Positions 1-18,753 of a DNA stretch of 64,000 nt are shown piece by piece. Within the stretch, counting starts at the first letter, position 1. Each line of letters opens with the position of its first letter. Source of the DNA: Crenothrix sp. D3 (GTDB lineage: Bacteria > Pseudomonadota > Gammaproteobacteria > Methylococcales > Methylomonadaceae); assembly GCA_002134785.1 (NCBI GenBank), contig MBQZ01000029.1:124001-188000 (forward strand). The letters are read 5' to 3'. The translations under genes and the position numbers were made by a program. The notes under the pieces were generated by a model, which was not told where the DNA came from, searched no databases, and saw only the letters and a list, made by a program, of their open reading frames with translations.

Positions 1-1
1 C

Positions 2-88
2 ACTACGCATGATAGAGATATTAATGCGGCTAAGAATATTCTCGCGCTTGGGCATAAGCGTCTAGCAGTAGGAATCCCCCTGCTTTAG
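2..88 (+). mobile_element. tnpB: 3' end of an IS200/IS605-family tnpB (OrfB), partial
   Basis: The window opens inside a reading frame too short for the ORF track. It encodes THDRDINAAKNILALGHKR and ends in GIPLL before a TAG stop. HDRDxNAAxNIL is the conserved C-terminal RuvC-III region of TnpB, the RNA-guided nuclease of IS200/IS605 transposons. The rest of the gene lies upstream of the window, so it cannot be told whether it is intact. The stop falls inside the right-end hairpin, as is usual for these elements. Family assignment rests on this short motif plus the hairpin. Confidence 0.8.
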
Positions 89-1043: not shown

Positions 1044-1080
1044 AGCGACAAAATATCTTTTCTCACAGGTTAAATTCTTC

Positions 1081-1577
1081 ATACCCAAACAAACCATTCT
1101 CGTCGTAGATGACGAAGCCAAAATGCGTCGTCTGCTGGAAATTATGCTCACTCAAATGGATTATGCGGTACTGCAAGCAGGTAATGGTTTAGAAGCCCTT
1201 GCTGTATTAGAACAACAAGCGGCTTATTAAAACAGTTACGCGAGCTAGCCAATAACATTCCTGTCATTGTTGTCACTGCTTACGGCACGGTAGAAACGGC
1301 GGTCGATGCGATGAAATATGGTGCGAGTGATTACATCGTGCGCCCGTTTGAATTGGATGCAGTCGAAGCCGCTGTGCAACAGGCATTAACCTTAAGTAAG
1401 GCGCAACGAAAAAACCGTTATTTAGGGCAGGAAAATAAAAAAAGCTGGCAGGGTTTTATCGGTTCTAGCGTTGCCATGCAGCACATTTATACGCTGATTA
1501 AACAAGTCGCGGCTACTAAAACTGAAGAAATATTTTTAATTTCTATTTTCGTTAAATATCGTCTGTATCAGACATGA
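1081..1577 (+). pseudogene. Broken NtrC/AtoC-type response regulator remnant
   Basis: Frame 1 from 1081 encodes TILVVDDEAKMRRLLEIMLT through ALAVLEQQAA, the N-terminal half of a receiver domain with its acidic pair, then hits TAA at 1228. A second frame from 1221 continues as LLKQLRELANNIPVIVVTAYG and DYIVRPFELDAVEAAV, the second receiver half with the conserved Lys replaced by Arg. About 15 codons covering the phospho-acceptor Asp are missing at the frame change. The protein then enters a sigma54-activator linker (GFIGSSVAMQHIYTLIKQVA) and loses similarity just where the AAA+ Walker A should begin, next to the 3' end of the symporter gene. Internal deletion, frameshift and truncation make it non-functional. 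Confidence 0.8.
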
Positions 1578-2826
1578 TAACAGCTAGGGTGCAGTTAGCC
1601 TGAACATTAAGGGCGGTGATGATGGGGTCGATGACTGGGTCTATTGCCACCAGTAAAATAATTGCCACACCTGAGGGTAAGCCGAGGGGGTCAAGAATCA
1701 TGGCTATCATACTTAAACCAATGATGCTGGGGGTACTGGATGAAGCTAAACCCGCCAGCATGGAACCCACAAAAATAATAGTCAATTCATTAAAATCTAA
1801 TTCCATGCCGTAAATTTGTGCAATAAATAAACTAGAAATAGCAAATTGCAATACCGAGGCAGGAGGATTAATCGTCATACCTAAAGGAATCATTAAATCA
1901 CAGATGTTTTTATCAGCTTTTAAATTATTTTTTAGGGCATTTAATGCGGCTGGAATGGTGGCAAAACTACTAGCAGTTCCTAATGCAACCAGCAATGGTT
2001 GACGTAAACTGATTAAAATCTGCACATAAGAAAATCTGTGTTTGAGTTTCCACCACATTATTAAACTATAAATAAATAACGAGCTAATACAGGCAATATA
2101 AATAAGGGTGATTAATTTCGTGGTTGCCCAGACAATTTCTAAACCGACTTTAGCAATTTCTTCGGCAAATAAACATAATAAACCGAGCGGTAAAAAATAC
2201 ATCAACCAGCCAATAATGGCTAAAAAACCATCATAAAAACCGTTAATGACCATTAACGCAGCTTTATTAGCATCAGATGTTAATAACCCCATGCTAATGC
2301 CCGTTAAAATAGAGAAAAACAATACGGCTAGAATATCGCCCCCTGATAATGATTTGAATATATTCTCAGGAATAATAGCTTGTAAATAAGTAAATAGACT
2401 GGGTGGTTCGAGTTGTTCACTCAGGTTTTGTTCGGTTTTGCTAATGGTTTTACCTAAAATAACTTGTGCTTCATGAGGTAACTCTGTACCAGGATTTCCA
2501 AAAATGCCCACAATTAAGCCAATTAAACTGGCGATAATTAAGCCAAGAAAAAGGAAGCTAATTAATTTAATAACCTGACTTTTTTCCATGCCAGAAACGA
2601 ATAAATTACCTAATCCAGAAATCACCGCAGTGACTAACATAGGTAATACTAGCATTTGTAAGAGCCTGAGATATAAACTACCGAATGGCATAAGTTTATG
2701 TGCTAATTCAACATCAAAGATGCCAATCAGCGCACCTAAAAAAACACCAATAAAAATAAACCAAGGGCTTAATAACCAAGATAGTTTTGGTAAGTAGGAT
2801 TTTTCAGCTGACAGGGGTAGATTCAT
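1552..2826 (-). CDS. SLC1-family (DctA/GltP-type) cation symporter
   Basis: The 424-residue protein has about eight hydrophobic spans plus two re-entrant loops. The family signatures are present: a serine-rich ATIPAAL hairpin (ASSFATIPAALNAL), the TINPPAS stretch in place of the usual NxDG-type motif, and a C-terminal IDPVIDPIITALNVQAN resembling the DxxRTxxNVxGD site. The usual Arg that contacts a dicarboxylate side chain is not in its expected place, so the substrate may not be a C4-dicarboxylate. Its ATG overlaps the stop of the upstream binding protein (TAATG), which implies translational coupling. It is the last gene of the five-gene operon starting at 7589. Confidence 0.8.
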   Translation of the reverse strand: MNLPLSAEKSYLPKLSWLLSPWFIFIGVFLGALIGIFDVELAHKLMPFGSLYLRLLQMLVLPMLVTAVISGLGNLFVSGMEKSQVIKLISFLFLGLIIASLIGLIVGIFGNPGTELPHEAQVILGKTISKTEQNLSEQLEPPSLFTYLQAIIPENIFKSLSGGDILAVLFFSILTGISMGLLTSDANKAALMVINGFYDGFLAIIGWLMYFLPLGLLCLFAEEIAKVGLEIVWATTKLITLIYIACISSLFIYSLIMWWKLKHRFSYVQILISLRQPLLVALGTASSFATIPAALNALKNNLKADKNICDLMIPLGMTINPPASVLQFAISSLFIAQIYGMELDFNELTIIFVGSMLAGLASSSTPSIIGLSMIAMILDPLGLPSGVAIILLVAIDPVIDPIITALNVQANCTLAVIMSDTDDI

Positions 2827-3647
2827 TAGTTATTAGTTAAGGAGTTGCTATAAGTAGTGTGCAATTTTTTTAAAAAGTTATCTTTAGATTTTTCGATATA
2901 TAAATCTAACCATGATAATAAATGCGTGTCTTGCCAGCGCACCGCAATGGCTAAGGTGTCGATACTTTGAGTAATAAAATCTGTTTTTAAAAATAGGCTA
3001 TCTTCGGGGTGTAGATTATTCCAATTCATTATTTCTACTTCATCATAAAGAAACGCTAAGTTATTGGATTTTTTAGTGTCTGCGATACCCTCAGTTAAGC
3101 TGTCATAACTAATAATATCAGCCTGAGGAAATAATTTTTTGGCGAATTCTATATATGAACTACCTTTTATTACCCCGATACGAATGCCTTGTTGATTTAA
3201 CAGTAATTCGGTTTTTTTGAAATTAGGATTATTTTTATAGCTGGATAGTTTTAAACGATTAATTAACAGAGCTTGTCTCAATGACCAATACGGCGTGCTA
3301 AATCGTACTACTTTAGCGCGTTCTAGGGTATCGCTTAGAGCACTGATACCAATATCGGCTTGTTGATTGACGACCGTTTTAATAATATCGTCGTAGGTTT
3401 TTGAATTACGATTGAATTTTAAGGTTACGCCTAGTTTTTCAGCAATATCACGCGCTAGTTCAATATCAACACCAATCAGTTCATTATTAGCATTGTGCAT
3501 ATAAAAGGGGGGTACGTCTTCATAATACAGGGCAACAATTAATTCACCGCGTTGTTGAATACGCGCTATATCAAGTGGCGTAGCGGCGTGTGTCCACGCA
3601 TTCATAATAATGAGCAGGAAAAAGCACTTAAAACTTAAATGACGCAT
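2826..3647 (-). CDS. Periplasmic solute-binding protein (family 3)
   Basis: A 273-residue protein with a Sec signal peptide (RHLSFKCFFLLIIMNAWTHA). The mature part follows the amino-acid-type SBP family 3 pattern: RGELIVALYYEDVPPF, IGVDIELARDIAEKLGV, then QQADIGISALSDTLERAKVV and FSTPYW. These proteins normally feed ABC importers or sit in sensor proteins. Here the neighbour is an SLC1 symporter whose start overlaps this stop. The start lies 20 bp inside the upstream barrel gene. The ligand cannot be read from sequence; a polar amino acid or small carboxylate is a family-based guess. Confidence 0.85.
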   Translation of the reverse strand: MRHLSFKCFFLLIIMNAWTHAATPLDIARIQQRGELIVALYYEDVPPFYMHNANNELIGVDIELARDIAEKLGVTLKFNRNSKTYDDIIKTVVNQQADIGISALSDTLERAKVVRFSTPYWSLRQALLINRLKLSSYKNNPNFKKTELLLNQQGIRIGVIKGSSYIEFAKKLFPQADIISYDSLTEGIADTKKSNNLAFLYDEVEIMNWNNLHPEDSLFLKTDFITQSIDTLAIAVRWQDTHLLSWLDLYIEKSKDNFLKKLHTTYSNSLTNN

Positions 3648-5031
3648 ATAGCATTCCTTGCACCCATGTTTTATTACCGCCTAAATATTGTTGCCCCGCT
3701 TCACTGGGGACAAATGTTTCTAACCCTGCGGCTAAATCTACAGTAGCATTAACTGCCCAATCAGCCAGTAAATCGATTTCATTACCATAATGTGAGTCCG
3801 TTAAATTAAATGCACTGGGATTAACAAATTCATAATTTAAGTAAATTAAATTCAGGCTAATACGTTCAGTAGGTGTCAGTGTTAATCTACCTACTTGGGT
3901 AATTAAATTGGAGTTATCTAAAATAAATTCACCATTAATTTCCCCTTGAAACCATGTTCCCCATGTTTTAAATCCATACGCCATACTATCAAAACCTTTA
4001 CCTAATCGAGTATAACGATAACTTAAGGTCGGTTGCCACGAGAGTTCTGAGAATTTATATTCAATTTGTGCATAGCCACCTTGGGCAATATGACGGTCAA
4101 CAACAGCGGCATCAAAAATAGGTTGGGTAGTGATGTTATTGTGCTGATTAACATATTCGCCACTGATGGATAAATCAGGTAATGCAGTGGCTAGAGGGAT
4201 AAAGCTTAAGCGAATATTATAAATATCATTGTCCATGCTAGTGTAAGCGGTATTAAATAATGAGCCTTCTTCGTGGATGTTACGCTTATTCCCTTTGTTA
4301 TTGGCATTAATATAACTAACGCCAACAGTGGCAGTATCATGATAGTTATATTCTAAATTAACGCCGTCATAATTACGTCTAGTGGTTGGATTACGCGGAC
4401 GGGTTTCTAAATGAAAGCCTTCCAGTTTAATGCCATTGGTATTAATGCGAGCAATTAGGGTATTGGTAAAGGCAGTTCTTGAGCCTATCCAATATGAACC
4501 ACGATAACCGCCGTCGTCAGTGCCATTGGCTAATAATAATCCAGTGCCTAATTTGTAGTCTTGTGCGCCTGCGGATAAATCAAGCATATTTGCATCGAAT
4601 TTTTCTAATAATTTTCCAGACTTCCAGCCTATATATTTTTCTTCTGTTAAACCAGCATCTTTAAAATTTTTATAATAACCATATTCCGTAAAATCGGTTT
4701 TTTCTAATGGCATAAGCACGCCATGTTGGGTAATACCTGAGGGGTCGTTGCCTGATATGGCACTATAAATAAAACTAAAGCCTGCGTATAACTGGCTTTC
4801 TTTGGGTAAATTAATAGTGGCTTTGACATTAGGTTCTACGGTTAATTCACCGTACACATCACTGAGATGCTGTTTAGTTGGATCGCCTGAACGATTATTG
4901 CCTTCTAGTAGGGTTGCGGTTTGAATCTGTAAGCCCGCTGATAACGTGCCATAGTCACTTTCATAGAGTGTTTGTTGAGCGTAACTGAGCGAGGAGTAAC
5001 TTAATGCGATAATAGCGAGGAAGCGGCGCAT
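3628..5031 (-). CDS. Outer-membrane beta-barrel protein (porin-like), putative
   Basis: The 467-residue product has a signal peptide (MRRFLAIIALSYSSLSYAQQ) and a long series of alternating polar and hydrophobic strands ending in the aromatic C-terminus YASFKF, the BAM recognition signature. Length and strand density fit a 16-18-strand porin; loose similarity to alginate-export or OprD-like barrels is possible but not shown. It follows the cysteine-cluster gene by 4 bp and overlaps the binding-protein gene by 20 bp, so it probably provides the outer-membrane step for the same substrate. Confident as a barrel, not as to substrate. Confidence 0.75.
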   Translation of the reverse strand: MRRFLAIIALSYSSLSYAQQTLYESDYGTLSAGLQIQTATLLEGNNRSGDPTKQHLSDVYGELTVEPNVKATINLPKESQLYAGFSFIYSAISGNDPSGITQHGVLMPLEKTDFTEYGYYKNFKDAGLTEEKYIGWKSGKLLEKFDANMLDLSAGAQDYKLGTGLLLANGTDDGGYRGSYWIGSRTAFTNTLIARINTNGIKLEGFHLETRPRNPTTRRNYDGVNLEYNYHDTATVGVSYINANNKGNKRNIHEEGSLFNTAYTSMDNDIYNIRLSFIPLATALPDLSISGEYVNQHNNITTQPIFDAAVVDRHIAQGGYAQIEYKFSELSWQPTLSYRYTRLGKGFDSMAYGFKTWGTWFQGEINGEFILDNSNLITQVGRLTLTPTERISLNLIYLNYEFVNPSAFNLTDSHYGNEIDLLADWAVNATVDLAAGLETFVPSEAGQQYLGGNKTWVQGMLYASFKF

Positions 5032-5035
5032 GAGC

Positions 5036-5647
5036 TTAGCCTAGGTCATCAGGCGTGGTTAATGCCGTGTAGCCGAATTGATTAATCGTCCATTCACTAC
5101 AGACATAATCGGTGGGTAATTCTTTAGTTAAGGCAATGAGCTGCATCTCTTCTCTGCTCATATTAAGCACTTGACTGTGTTCAATTTTATACGGAAACGG
5201 CAAATAGCCGACAAACTCACGGCTTAATTTGACCATTTGTTCAAGACTGCCTGTGTGTTGTTGTTCCCATGCCAATGCTTGGGTATGTACAGATAGCATT
5301 TTGTCTATGAGTTCATGATTAGGAATTGGGCATTTACGGTGGTCAGCAACTAAAAATTGAGTCGCGCTCAGATTGGCAGGAAACAGCGGATACCATGAAC
5401 AATCTATCGGTTTTAAATCGCCTTGTTGACAAGGTTTATGGCACACGGCGTGGGAATGGTCAGCGTCAAACGATAAATGGGCTGATTTTAAACCCTGTTG
5501 TACGGCTTGTTCATGTTCACCTGACAGTAACATAATCCAGTTACCCGCTGTAAATTTACAACACGCGTAACCACAAAGGTTTTGCCTTTGTGTGCAAGAC
5601 GGCAGCATACCATCGTCTTTTAAAACCGTTTCGCCTGTATTAATCAT
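5036..5647 (-). CDS. Cysteine-cluster protein, YkgJ-like, hypothetical
   Basis: The 203-residue cytoplasmic protein carries a cluster LCGYACCKF near residues 24-32, with further cysteines at HAVCHKPCQQG, PIDCSWYP and HRKCPIP. This spacing resembles the YkgJ / zinc-or-iron-chelating (UPF0153) proteins, thought to bind Zn or an Fe-S cluster. No biochemical role is established for that group. It overlaps the upstream kinase gene by 8 bp and is 4 bp from the barrel gene, so it is embedded in the transport operon. It could be a metal-dependent modifier or redox factor for the system; that is inference. Confidence 0.6.
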   Translation of the reverse strand: MINTGETVLKDDGMLPSCTQRQNLCGYACCKFTAGNWIMLLSGEHEQAVQQGLKSAHLSFDADHSHAVCHKPCQQGDLKPIDCSWYPLFPANLSATQFLVADHRKCPIPNHELIDKMLSVHTQALAWEQQHTGSLEQMVKLSREFVGYLPFPYKIEHSQVLNMSREEMQLIALTKELPTDYVCSEWTINQFGYTALTTPDDLG

Positions 5648-7589
5648 CGCGCACCATGTAAATATAATTGACTACAATTTTCCAGCTTTTAGCCTCTGGA
5701 AAATTCACTGTTTGCCATGCGGCAATTTTAAATATAGTTTTGCCATTATCTGGAAAAGAATAATAACCCACTCCCTCAGGCTTTCCGACAATGAGCCGAC
5801 CAAACGCAACGACGGAAGGAGACTGGTTGTTAAGCGTATCAGTAAAAATATTGGTGCCGCGATATTTTTCTTCTACATCATAAAAAATTAAACCATCTTC
5901 CTTCATCAGCCAAATATCTTTGGGGTGACTACTATTGAGTTCGACAGGGAACAATTTAGGTAGCACTTTTTCAGGGAAAACTTTGGCAACTAGGTAGCCT
6001 AACAGTTGATCTTGTTTTTGTACAGGAGCTAAAAAGACCAGCACCACTTTACCCTGTTCACTAATCATTATCGGCGCGTCGAATTTATGAGTGATGGTTT
6101 TCCAGTCTAAGGTGGCTATGGTGTTGTCTGTTTCGAAAGTAAAGGAAGTAAAAGCTGGATATTGATTGTGCAGGGTCGTCAATAACGCATTTTGCGCGTC
6201 TGGCGATAAGGTGCTGAGCGTGGTAGCCGTCTTTTTCATATCAGCAAATAGTTGGGTTGCACTGCTATTAATATTGGCTGAAATAGTGTTTGCCTGCTGT
6301 TGCGCTTGTTCACCTAACGCAGTCACCGAAATTAATGCTTCTTCGGCTTTGGTTCTAGCTTGATCCATTTGCATGGCATAATTAACAGAAAAAATCGCCC
6401 CAGCGACTATCAACGTCAGCAACAACGCGAATATCACCACGACAAATTTATTTTTTGCTAAAAACCGCCGCAATAACTCTTTTTTAGAATAGCTGTAAAT
6501 ATTGACCATTCTACCGTCGCGATAGGCTTTCAGTTGATAGGACAATTCACCCGCATTGGCAAAACGGTCAAAAGGATTTTTCGCCATCGCTTTTTCACAA
6601 ATTGCCCCCAACTCAGGCGAAATAGTTCCTAGATAATGATTAGGCGATGGTGAAGGCTTATCATCCAATAACCGCGTTTGAATAGTTTGCTGATTATTGC
6701 TTTTATAAGGTAACTTGCCTGTAATCAGTTTAAATAAAATCACCCCCAAGCTGTAGACATCACTGGCTTTACTCGCTTTACCTTTCAATTGTTCGGGTGC
6801 CATATAATGCAGTGTTCCCATGCTTTGGGTATTATCATTATCACTGTAAGTCTGGGCTTGGTGGGCTTTTACGGTTCTAAAAAAATCACCGTCATCGTCG
6901 TCATCATCTAAGGCTTGTGCTAAGCCCCAATCCAAAATGATAGTTTCGCCAAATTTGCCACTGATGATATTACTGGGTTTTAAATCTCGATGAATCACAC
7001 CTTTAGAATGTGCATAAGCCAGTGTGTCACAGCTATCAATGAGCGTATCCAGTAGTTCCATGCGTTTGTGTAATGCTAATTCGGCTGTACTCTGCTGTTG
7101 GCATTTATCCAATTGTTGTTCTAAGGTCTTGCCTTTGACATAGCGCATTACATAATACGCTCTGCCATCCTCACGGTAGCCGAGTTGATAAACAGGGATA
7201 ATGCCAGGGTGTTCTAATTTACCTGTAATTTTTGCTTCATGAATAAATGACTTTTCTAGTTGTGCATTATTTTCTGCCCTGTCGAGCAGCTCTTTAATCG
7301 CAACTCTGCGCCCGATGGTCTCATCATAAGCAAGGTAAACGCGTCCGACACCGCCTTCGCCAATCACCCGTTGGATGGTTAAGTTTTCAGCAAATTTTGC
7401 CGTGTTTTTTGCTGAATTGGGTAAGGCTGATGCTAATGGTTTAGGCTGTGGCGGATAAGCGACAGTGGTTTCAAGCGTGCTAGTGGTTTCATTGTGCTTC
7501 GCCCACAGTACAGTCGCCTCATCGTCCGTGGTATTTAATATATCTGAAAGTGATTTATCGTTACTTGTCATGGTAGTGGCTTGAATCAT
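5640..7589 (-). CDS. Membrane Ser/Thr protein kinase with extracytoplasmic Cache-like domain
   Basis: A 649-residue PknB-type kinase. The glycine loop IGEGGVGRVY is at 76-85, the catalytic Lys in VAIKE at about 99, HRDLKPSN at 200-207 and APEQ near 264. The metal-binding DFG is DWG (LDWGLA, about 220), a common bacterial variant. An Asp-rich run (DDDDDDDG) follows in the activation segment. One transmembrane helix lies at about 382-402 (VVVIFALLLTLIVAGAIFSV), then about 230 outer residues with PDC/Cache traits (GLIFYDVEEKYRGTNIF, then KSWKIVV near the end). This is a receptor-kinase layout: ligand sensing outside, phosphorylation inside. It is the first gene of the transport operon. Start could also be Met7. 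Confidence 0.85.
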   Translation of the reverse strand: MIQATTMTSNDKSLSDILNTTDDEATVLWAKHNETTSTLETTVAYPPQPKPLASALPNSAKNTAKFAENLTIQRVIGEGGVGRVYLAYDETIGRRVAIKELLDRAENNAQLEKSFIHEAKITGKLEHPGIIPVYQLGYREDGRAYYVMRYVKGKTLEQQLDKCQQQSTAELALHKRMELLDTLIDSCDTLAYAHSKGVIHRDLKPSNIISGKFGETIILDWGLAQALDDDDDDGDFFRTVKAHQAQTYSDNDNTQSMGTLHYMAPEQLKGKASKASDVYSLGVILFKLITGKLPYKSNNQQTIQTRLLDDKPSPSPNHYLGTISPELGAICEKAMAKNPFDRFANAGELSYQLKAYRDGRMVNIYSYSKKELLRRFLAKNKFVVVIFALLLTLIVAGAIFSVNYAMQMDQARTKAEEALISVTALGEQAQQQANTISANINSSATQLFADMKKTATTLSTLSPDAQNALLTTLHNQYPAFTSFTFETDNTIATLDWKTITHKFDAPIMISEQGKVVLVFLAPVQKQDQLLGYLVAKVFPEKVLPKLFPVELNSSHPKDIWLMKEDGLIFYDVEEKYRGTNIFTDTLNNQSPSVVAFGRLIVGKPEGVGYYSFPDNGKTIFKIAAWQTVNFPEAKSWKIVVNYIYMVRDD

Positions 7590-7658: not shown

Positions 7659-7686
7659 ATAATAGATACCTTTACTTATCCGTCAA
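7659..7686 (-). promoter_or_regulatory. Sigma70-type promoter of the kinase-transport operon
   Basis: On the minus strand TTGACG (7686-7681) is followed after 16 bp by TATTAT (7664-7659), about 70 bp ahead of the kinase start. It is the only good promoter seen for the five tightly packed genes down to 1552. Confidence 0.55.
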
Positions 7687-17414: not shown

Positions 17415-17502
17415 TCTCCTCGACTGTACACCGCGTTTTATGTGTACATCATTGCTAGTTCCAAAGCTCTTCCCATTACGCAAAGCTATTCAAGGAATTA
17501 TC

Positions 17503-18753
17503 ATGAGCCACTCGCATCAAGCTCCAGCACCTAATCGCCAAACCCTTTATGTCGCTATCGCATTGGTGTTAGGTGTCATAGTGGGTGAATTACTCAATTT
17601 GAACTTAGCAAAGGGTAGCCCTGTCTTAGTGCAAATTTTAGAAATCCTTACCGTGTTAACCGATATTTTCTTGCGCTTAGTGAAGATGATTATCGCGCCG
17701 TTGGTGTTTGCTACTTTGGTGGTGGGTATGGCCAAAACAGGTGACGTTAAAACCGTCGGACGAATCGGCATTAAAGCGATGCTGTGGTTTTTCTCTGCGT
17801 CCCTGTTCAGTTTATTACTGGGTATGTTGCTGGTTAATATCTTTCATCCTGGTTCTTCGTTACATATCGCACTACCGCCTGTTGATGCCAGTACGGGCTT
17901 AGTCAATGTGAAGCCGACCTTGACTAATTTTGTCGCGCATATTTTTCCGAAAAGTATTATTGAAGCAATGGCGAACAATGAGATTCTGCAAATCGTGGTG
18001 TTCTCGATGTTTTTTGGCATTGCCTGTGCGTCGTTAGGCGAATTGGCGCACCCGACAGTGAAATTACTCGATTCACTGTCTCATGTCATGCTAAAAGTCA
18101 CCAGCTATGTGATGCACTACGCGCCTGTCGCGGTATTTGCGGCAATGGCGGCAGTGATTGCACAAAATGGCATCGGCGTGTTGTTGAACTATGGGCAGTT
18201 TATCGGTGAATTTTATTTCGCGCTGTTGCTACTGTGTACGTTGTTGGGCTGTTTTGCAACGCTGTTTATCGGGCAGCGTATCTGGTCTTTATTACGCCAT
18301 ATTCGTGAACCGATGTTATTAGCATTCGGTACGGCAAGCAGTGAAAGCGCGTATCCCAAACTATTACAACAATTAGAACGCTTTGGTTGTGATGAAAAAG
18401 TCTGTGGTTTGGTATTACCGCTGGGTTATTCGTTTAATCTGGACGGAAGCATGATGTACATGACCTTTGCAACACTGTTTATCGCTCAGGCTTATGGTAT
18501 TGATATGCCACTCGGCGAACAACTCATGATGTTGCTGATGTTATTGTTTACCAGTAAAGGTGTCGCGGGTGTACCGAGGGCTTCATTGATTGTGATTGCA
18601 GCAACGCTATCAATGTTTGATATTCCCGAAGCGGGCTTATTGTTATTGCTAGGTATAGATCAAGTTTTGGATATGGGACGCAGTGCGACTAATGTTTTTG
18701 GTAACAGTATTGCCGCCGCGTTGGTCAGTCGTTGGCAAGGTGCATTGAAATAG
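17503..18753 (+). CDS. SLC1-family dicarboxylate/amino-acid:cation symporter
   Basis: The ATG at 17503 (MSHSHQAPAPN) has an AAGGA ribosome binding site; the ORF-track start at 17440 adds an unlikely leader. The 416-residue protein has the DctA/GltP motifs: FGTASSESAYPKLL (serine-rich hairpin), GYSFNLDGSMMYMTFA (NxDG), and IDQVLDMGRSATNVFGN with the Asp-x3-Asp-Met-x-Arg pattern. Unlike the 1552-2826 paralogue it keeps the canonical NLDG and Arg residues, so a C4-dicarboxylate or acidic amino acid is likely. It appears monocistronic. Confidence 0.88.
   Translation: MSHSHQAPAPNRQTLYVAIALVLGVIVGELLNLNLAKGSPVLVQILEILTVLTDIFLRLVKMIIAPLVFATLVVGMAKTGDVKTVGRIGIKAMLWFFSASLFSLLLGMLLVNIFHPGSSLHIALPPVDASTGLVNVKPTLTNFVAHIFPKSIIEAMANNEILQIVVFSMFFGIACASLGELAHPTVKLLDSLSHVMLKVTSYVMHYAPVAVFAAMAAVIAQNGIGVLLNYGQFIGEFYFALLLLCTLLGCFATLFIGQRIWSLLRHIREPMLLAFGTASSESAYPKLLQQLERFGCDEKVCGLVLPLGYSFNLDGSMMYMTFATLFIAQAYGIDMPLGEQLMMLLMLLFTSKGVAGVPRASLIVIAATLSMFDIPEAGLLLLLGIDQVLDMGRSATNVFGNSIAAALVSRWQGALK

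Follow-up and report, generated by a model that had tools for sequence, protein, structure and literature searches.

The 64,000-nucleotide stretch of DNA analysed here comes from Crenothrix sp. D3, a methanotroph of the Methylococcales (contig MBQZ01000029.1, positions 124,001 to 188,000; hereafter the window). It contains five abutting minus-strand open reading frames (ORFs) at 1552-7589: genes for a receptor-type Ser/Thr kinase, a protein with a Cys cluster, a barrel of the outer membrane, a substrate-binding protein (SBP) of family 3 and an SLC1 carrier (Table 1). A preliminary description of this DNA had proposed a binding-protein-assisted, kinase-controlled SLC1 transport system, and the coordinates, common strand and junctions that it gave for the five ORFs (8-bp overlap, 4-bp gap, 20-bp overlap and 1-bp overlap) proved accurate. 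Upon scanning the five proteins against the curated Pfam cut-offs, we obtained matches to SDF for the carrier (E=2.6e-76), SBP_bac_3 for the SBP (E=6.7e-23) and Pkinase for the kinase (E=1.1e-42). The gene overlaps suggest that the five genes are co-transcribed. One promoter-like site indeed lies upstream of them, at 7686-7659, but the scan that found it carries no evidential weight for a single promoter, because the region has fewer promoter-like sites than its shuffles (10 vs 22.8). The kinase may start at 7571 (MTSNDKS), where its orthologue in the congener G006 begins.

Table 1. Features of the operon and its upstream region, with positions in the window
Feature	Position	Strand	Basis
SLC1/DAACS-fold carrier (PF00375), SBP-linked clade, 424 aa	1552..2826	-	Pfam, aligned motifs, tree
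Family-3 periplasmic SBP (PF00497), 273 aa, signal peptide by eye	2826..3647	-	Pfam, clamp residues
20-bp overlap of barrel 3' end (YASFKF*) and SBP start (MRHLSF)	3628..3647	-	Kept in Methylobacter, Methylomonas
Outer-membrane beta-barrel protein, 467 aa, probably a divergent AlgE/Alginate_exp relative	3628..5031	-	G898 homologue over Pfam cut-off
Cys-cluster protein, cytoplasmic, 203 aa, no known family	5036..5647	-	Conserved Cys
Receptor Ser/Thr kinase of 649 aa, with the kinase domain in the cytoplasm, a single transmembrane helix and a Cache-like domain in the periplasm	5640..7589	-	Pfam
Promoter-like TTGACG-N16-TATTAT, weak evidence	7659..7686	-	Promoter scan upstream of kinase

Recurrence and co-inheritance of the SBP-SLC1 pair

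The SLC1 family, which includes the human glutamate transporters, is the textbook example of 3-Na+-coupled elevator transport without a binding protein. Using profiles of the window's SLC1 relatives, for which SBP linkage was no selection criterion, we searched the Pseudomonadota and found matches in 21 of 301 Methylococcales genomes (E≤1e-60, own genome included), four further carrier matches in 369 Gammaproteobacteria genomes (E≤1e-80), and matches in 7 further genomes among 399 from Pseudomonadota (E≤1e-70). An SBP adjoins the carrier in 31 of the 33 evaluable clade loci from Methylococcales, other Gammaproteobacteria and other Pseudomonadota (tandem carriers without an SBP of their own were counted once, and three loci cut by contig ends were excluded), whereas canonical SLC1 loci from the own genome and class had an SBP within ~1.5 kb in 0 of 32 cases. 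Named carriers of the pair include Paraburkholderia phymatum, Cupriavidus sp. P-10 and Gemmobacter aquarius, whose public annotation places the SBP and carrier genes side by side. Clade carriers are annotated merely as cation:dicarboxylase symporters, G. aquarius being an example, and this label probably misstates both ion and substrate. Apparent SBP-SLC1 fusions in the GC-rich loci L063 and L064 were rejected, as their long ORFs are frame artefacts.

A maximum-likelihood tree built from 71 carriers, with some long branches, had the SBP-linked clade on one side of a 100/100 branch, and in the SBP tree the linked SBPs were likewise split by a 100/100 branch from the Escherichia coli SBPs of ATP-binding cassette (ABC) importers (HisJ, ArgT, ArtI, ArtJ, GlnH, GltI and TcyJ). 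SBP and carrier distances correlated across 31 pairs with r=0.96, a value that none of 2000 permutations reached; as part of this correlation stems from the shared ancestry of the host genomes, it demonstrates co-inheritance and not contact. The own genome (99.99% complete) contained no polar-amino-acid ABC permease over the cut-off of TIGR01726 (HEQRo-type), a profile that matched in 11 of 14 control genomes, and just one SBP, with no second, that matched the linked-SBP profile at E≤1e-10. Recurrence, co-evolution and the missing ABC partner strongly support the notion of a binding-protein-assisted SLC1 system, and the SBP-SLC1 partnership is real and general.

The nearest named matches to the window come from Methylobacter and Methylomonas. 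The gene order CYS-barrel-SBP-SLC1 is common to seven genomes, namely that of the window and those of six relatives: Methylobacter FW305 (L021/L093), G020 (L026), two near-identical Methylomonas koyamae-type genomes (L094 and L095), Methylomonas STC_4 (L096) and G981 (L097). The 20-bp barrel/SBP overlap was kept in 5 of 5 loci examined, because the barrel C-terminal YASFKF* and the SBP start MR(H/L)LxF use the same bases; in G040, a barrel gene is linked directly to an SLC1 gene by the same overlap. Since gene order and overlap are conserved, the homologues of four of the five genes are not scattered, and for these four the refuting case that the preliminary description had named does not hold. 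We propose that the SBP-SLC1 pair forms the conserved core and that barrel, Cys-cluster protein and sensor are accessory modules. In Methylomonas and G981 (L023 3795-5806, L024 873-2863, L097 11348-13371), genes for a Band_7/SPFH-type protein and a Peripla_BP_6-type binding protein lie in conserved order 5' of the Cys gene.

Site residues of the carrier and the binding protein

The window carrier matched PF00375 over its full length (257.6 bits vs a cut-off of 27.9), and its best match in the PDB was the aspartate transporter 9bgz. Its transmembrane helix (TM) 7 reads GMTINPPASVLQ where canonical carriers have GATINMDGTALY, and its TM8 reads DPVIDPIITALNVQAN, which differs from the canonical pattern D...D..RT..N...D such that Arg397 is replaced by Ile. 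The aligned motifs thereby bear out the earlier reading that TINPPAS stands in place of NxDG and that the canonical Arg is missing. In GltPh, D312 and D405 coordinate Na+, and D394 holds the amino group of the substrate and R397 its side-chain carboxylate. Mapping GltPh numbering via the aligned motifs onto 38 clade members and 33 controls, we found D312->P, R397->I and D405->N in the window carrier, with N310, D394, T398 and N401 retained. Position 312 is Asp in 30 of 33 controls (Asn in the other 3) vs 0 of 38 clade members, and position 405 is Asp in 30 of 33 controls vs 0 of 38 clade members, one of whose sequences ends before the site. R397 is retained in 19 of the 38, the rest having Leu, Val, Ile or Met. 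The window's subclade retains N310, D394, T398 and N401 and has lost R397, while a second subclade, with CRTG in TM7, has lost D394 and N401 and retained R397. The altered substrate and ion site is thus a property of the whole clade, in which the transport-domain scaffold and hairpins appear intact in alignments. These substitutions suggest that ion coupling has changed throughout the SBP-linked clade and, because Arg397 is lost while Asp394 is kept, that the window's subclade handles a neutral rather than an acidic amino acid.

Two different clade SLC1 genes often share one SBP neighbour (L027, L115, L117, L118, L153, L154 and L155), a hint that carriers may be hetero-oligomeric. At 17440-18753 (+), the window encodes another SLC1 carrier, a canonical one (FNLDGS, with the Arg retained), just downstream of a DsbC-like gene, and a close homologue of it in G002 (L028) has a similar downstream ParA-like neighbour.

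The window SBP fits the family-3 amino-acid SBPs (PF00497) both by its profile match and by its Arg/Asp clamp: R110 and D202 correspond to HisJ R77 and D161, which in HisJ and LAO hold the alpha-carboxylate and alpha-amino groups of the ligand. Among the linked SBPs, R77 was found in 32 of 32 and D161 in 31 of 32; HisJ D11 was not kept. A gene for an Asp/Glu/hydantoin racemase (PF01177) adjoins the pair or lies one gene away from it at eight loci (L153, L154, L155, L117, L119, L120, L035 and L111) and at none of the controls, which points to amino acids, perhaps in their D-forms, as the substrate.

Barrel, Cys-cluster protein and Cache-domain sensors

The window barrel had no Pfam match, and its homologue in G898 exceeded the cut-off of the AlgE-type family (Alginate_exp, PF13372; 29.5 vs 25.2 bits). 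In many Methylococcales, a barrel of the Alginate_exp, Porin_5 or window type lies 5' or 3' of the SBP-SLC1 pair. The Cys-cluster protein, which was found solely with the module, has nine invariant Cys (C18, C25, C29, C30, C69, C73, C83, C106 and C183). We dismissed a relationship to YkgJ/CxxCxxCC proteins, as there was no Pfam match at E up to 10 and hhalign gave a probability of 0.2% against one such protein picked by eye.

By eye, the catalytic motifs of the kinase (GEGGVG, VAIK, HRDLKPSN, DWG and APE) look intact. The Cache-like outer domain assigned to it earlier gains some support from matches to dCache_1 in the window (3e-4) and in G006 (1e-7), both below the Pfam gathering score (45 bits). 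A search of 101 genomes turned up kinase homologues in 13. G006 (88% identical) shows the window's linkage of kinase, Cys protein and barrel, with the kinase-Cys junction kept, and has rpsB beside it. G898 belongs to a different genus; there, the genes for SBP, SLC1, barrel and kinase follow one another on the same strand, with the kinase last, and this kinase is 48% identical to that of the window over the full length, ectodomain included. The association of kinase and module in these two arrangements indicates that the link exists, but that it is neither general nor exclusive, and the kinase is best regarded as a lineage-specific member of the module.

Other Cache-type proteins recur at related loci. 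In G040 and G969 we found a dCache-HAMP-SpoIIE phosphatase together with RsbW-like ATPase and STAS proteins, and clade loci of G032, G924, G915 and G977 adjoin an uncharacterised dCache membrane protein. In L034 (10187-12388), L101, L102 and L103, a dCache membrane protein of ~735 aa, which has additional TM helices and lacks any recognised output domain, is encoded beside clade SLC1 genes. G002, G003 and G046 have a barrel gene with no SBP-SLC1 and, after it, a gene for a related membrane protein, whose HAMP and adenylate cyclase domains were confirmed in G002. A cyclase beside the pair of G494 was dropped as a candidate Cache sensor, as by eye the 1113-aa protein looks like a soluble cyclase that contains ATPase and TPR regions. 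In G032 (L035 10190-12421), a SulP transporter that contains STAS and cyclic-nucleotide-binding domains is encoded 3' of SBP-SLC1; in E. coli, the SLC1 carrier DctA has the SulP protein DauA as an interaction partner (PMC5703999).

Proposed mechanism and alternatives

We propose that the five genes together specify a unit for capturing and transporting amino acids, whose family-3 SBP would serve an SLC1 elevator carrier, not an ABC importer, and to which a signalling arm is attached. The AlgE-like barrel would pass the solute across the outer membrane, whereupon the conserved Arg/Asp pair of the SBP, residues that we observe, would clamp an alpha-amino acid. The loaded SBP would then dock on the SLC1 protein, and an elevator movement may carry the ligand inward. 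With the acidic residues lost from two Na+ sites, coupling would not be the canonical 3-Na+ one and may instead be H+-driven, exchange or facilitated. The ligand in the window's subclade would be a neutral amino acid, and in the window's lineage the Cache-domain Ser/Thr kinase might respond to that same ligand or to carrier occupancy and report to the cytoplasm, as DctA does with DcuS. Docking, transport direction, coupling ion, ligand and signalling are all predictions.

Each part of this scheme has known relatives. The clade resembles the SLC1/DAACS carriers (GltPh, GltTk, GltP, DctA and SstT; PF00375) in its full-length match, in a fold that is the same by homology and, in the window's subclade, in D394 and N401, but unlike canonical members, which work without an SBP, it has a near-constant SBP partner and lacks NxDG, D312 and D405 (38 of 38), the window carrier lacking Arg397 as well. 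The tripartite ATP-independent periplasmic (TRAP) and tripartite tricarboxylate (TTT) transporters also combine a periplasmic binding protein with an ATP-independent carrier, and TRAP is likewise an SBP-dependent elevator transporter (PMC9352664); here, however, the SBP is of the SBP_bac_3 type and not DctP or TctC, the carrier is a single SLC1 polypeptide and not QM or TctAB, and the operon has no QM-like gene. Polar amino acid ABC importers (HisJQMP and ArtPIQMJ) share the fold family and clamp residues of the window SBP, yet the own genome has no cognate permease over the cut-off, and the linked SBPs constitute a separate clade.

Signalling precedents exist as well. In E. coli, the SLC1 carrier DctA is a co-regulator of the periplasmic-PAS/Cache sensor kinase DcuS (PMC8307970), although DcuS is a histidine kinase, the DctA/DcuS complex has no SBP, and the systems are not homologous. 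Corynebacterium GlnH binds Asp and Glu, and its deletion alters PknG output (PMC9769921), so a Ser/Thr kinase can be under the influence of an SBP_bac_3 protein; the GlnH-GlnX-PknG system differs in that GlnX is a four-helix receptor and not SLC1, and PknG is soluble. In RtkS/PpkA and TagQRST/PpkA of type VI secretion, a periplasmic protein targets that part of a receptor Ser/Thr kinase which lies in the periplasm, and homologues of the window kinase adjoin vgrG, but these systems have no transporter, PpkA periplasmic domains differ, and RtkS, which we rejected as an SBP-like precedent, is unrelated to small-molecule-binding proteins (PMC6082577). A search of open-access PMC papers found no description of an SBP paired with an SLC1 carrier. 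The combination of SBP and SLC1 appears new, while SBP-dependent secondary transport as a principle and both families involved were known before.

Overall, we put the probability of SBP-partnered amino-acid transport that involves a lineage-specific sensor at roughly 0.6; more broadly, the module would serve SBP-partnered amino-acid uptake or sensing with changed ion coupling. We see an even chance that the pairs constitute a new class of SBP-dependent secondary transporters, separate from both TRAP and TTT, with a family-3 SBP feeding an SLC1 elevator that lacks canonical Na+ sites; in some lineages, the complex would double as ligand sensor of a Cache-domain kinase or phosphatase. If so, ion coupling and ligand capture would be exchangeable within one fold, as TRAP does with another fold, and this branch would offer a tractable bacterial system for testing that exchange; the recurring Cache-domain kinase and phosphatase neighbours would provide a test case for transporter-as-sensor control by Ser/Thr phosphorylation.

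Beyond the host ancestry in the mirrored distances, several points weigh against transport by an SBP-served carrier under kinase control: the clade loci L034 and L100 have no adjoining SBP, an AlphaFold2 model of the barrel from five sequences was of low confidence (mean pLDDT 30.2), and the lost Na+-site residues could mean a non-transporting protein. In that last case, the SLC1 protein would be a membrane receptor on which the loaded SBP docks to drive a Cache-domain output, namely the Ser/Thr kinase here and elsewhere the SpoIIE phosphatase with its anti-sigma-like ATPase and STAS partners. The clade-wide loss of those residues, the recurrence of Cache-type sensors beside the pairs, the nearby Cache protein that L034 and L100 keep, and the SLC1 member DctA acting as a co-sensor (PMC8307970) would all suit such a receptor. 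We nevertheless consider it unlikely in view of the intact transport domain, the porin-like barrels and racemases that suit uptake and metabolism, and the many pairs (L111-L120) without a nearby sensor gene. Simple co-location, in which an H+-coupled SLC1 carrier lies beside an SBP that acts alone or in chemotaxis, deserves still less credence: adjoining transport genes with a common substrate are frequent, but the recurrence (31/33 vs 0/32), the matching trees and the separate SBP clade speak against it. About equally improbable is a role for the module in the re-uptake, export or self-sensing of a product or precursor of an adjacent polyketide synthase (PKS)/nonribosomal peptide synthetase (NRPS) pathway, and not in handling nutrient amino acids. 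The four-gene module does lie next to genes for PKS, NRPS, asparagine synthase or a type II thioesterase in Methylobacter L021, Methylomonas L094/L095, L026 and L097, but no such cluster borders the window module or most SBP-SLC1 pairs, and the SBP retains a plain alpha-amino-acid clamp. We claim no link to the tundrenone cluster as such a neighbour; the main text of its paper mentions neither symporter nor porin.

The kinase part of the preliminary description fared less well than the transport part, for the same kinase does occur in the SBP-SLC1-barrel operon of G898, but it is not beside the module in most relatives, Methylobacter and Methylomonas included, and in the congener G005 it lies on another contig, apart from the module. 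The kinase alone may be a PpkA-like kinase of type VI secretion (T6SS), placed beside the module by rearrangement and functionally unrelated to it, a reading that we hold to be possible though somewhat doubtful. Its orthologues adjoin vgrG in three genomes (G012, G038 and G060), the G005 kinase lies beside a DUF6931 gene with vgrG 5' of the CYS-barrel-SBP genes (L031), and the window's own contig contains a T6SS sheath gene. The window kinase itself has no T6SS genes adjoining; its 8-bp overlap with the Cys gene, the junction kept in G006, and the same-strand G898 operon, with its other gene order, speak for membership in the module. In G917 (L107, 57-10710), two tandem SBP-SLC1 pairs adjoin the T6SS genes VipA, VipB and VasE. 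A T6SS connection thus recurs, in the G917 pairs, in the G005 vgrG and in the vgrG beside the kinase elsewhere, and as the two G917 pairs also adjoin sheath genes, a T6SS link need not exclude a transport link.

The DNA flanking the 3' end of the operon was read by eye. An NtrC-type response regulator remnant at 1066-1577 (+), consisting of a receiver domain with an in-frame stop and a truncated AAA+ start that ends where the SLC1 gene ends, is likely an insertion or rearrangement scar. At 1-88 (+) lies the C-terminal end of a TnpB-like transposase (HDRDINAAKNIL...), which places a mobile element 1.5 kb from the operon end.

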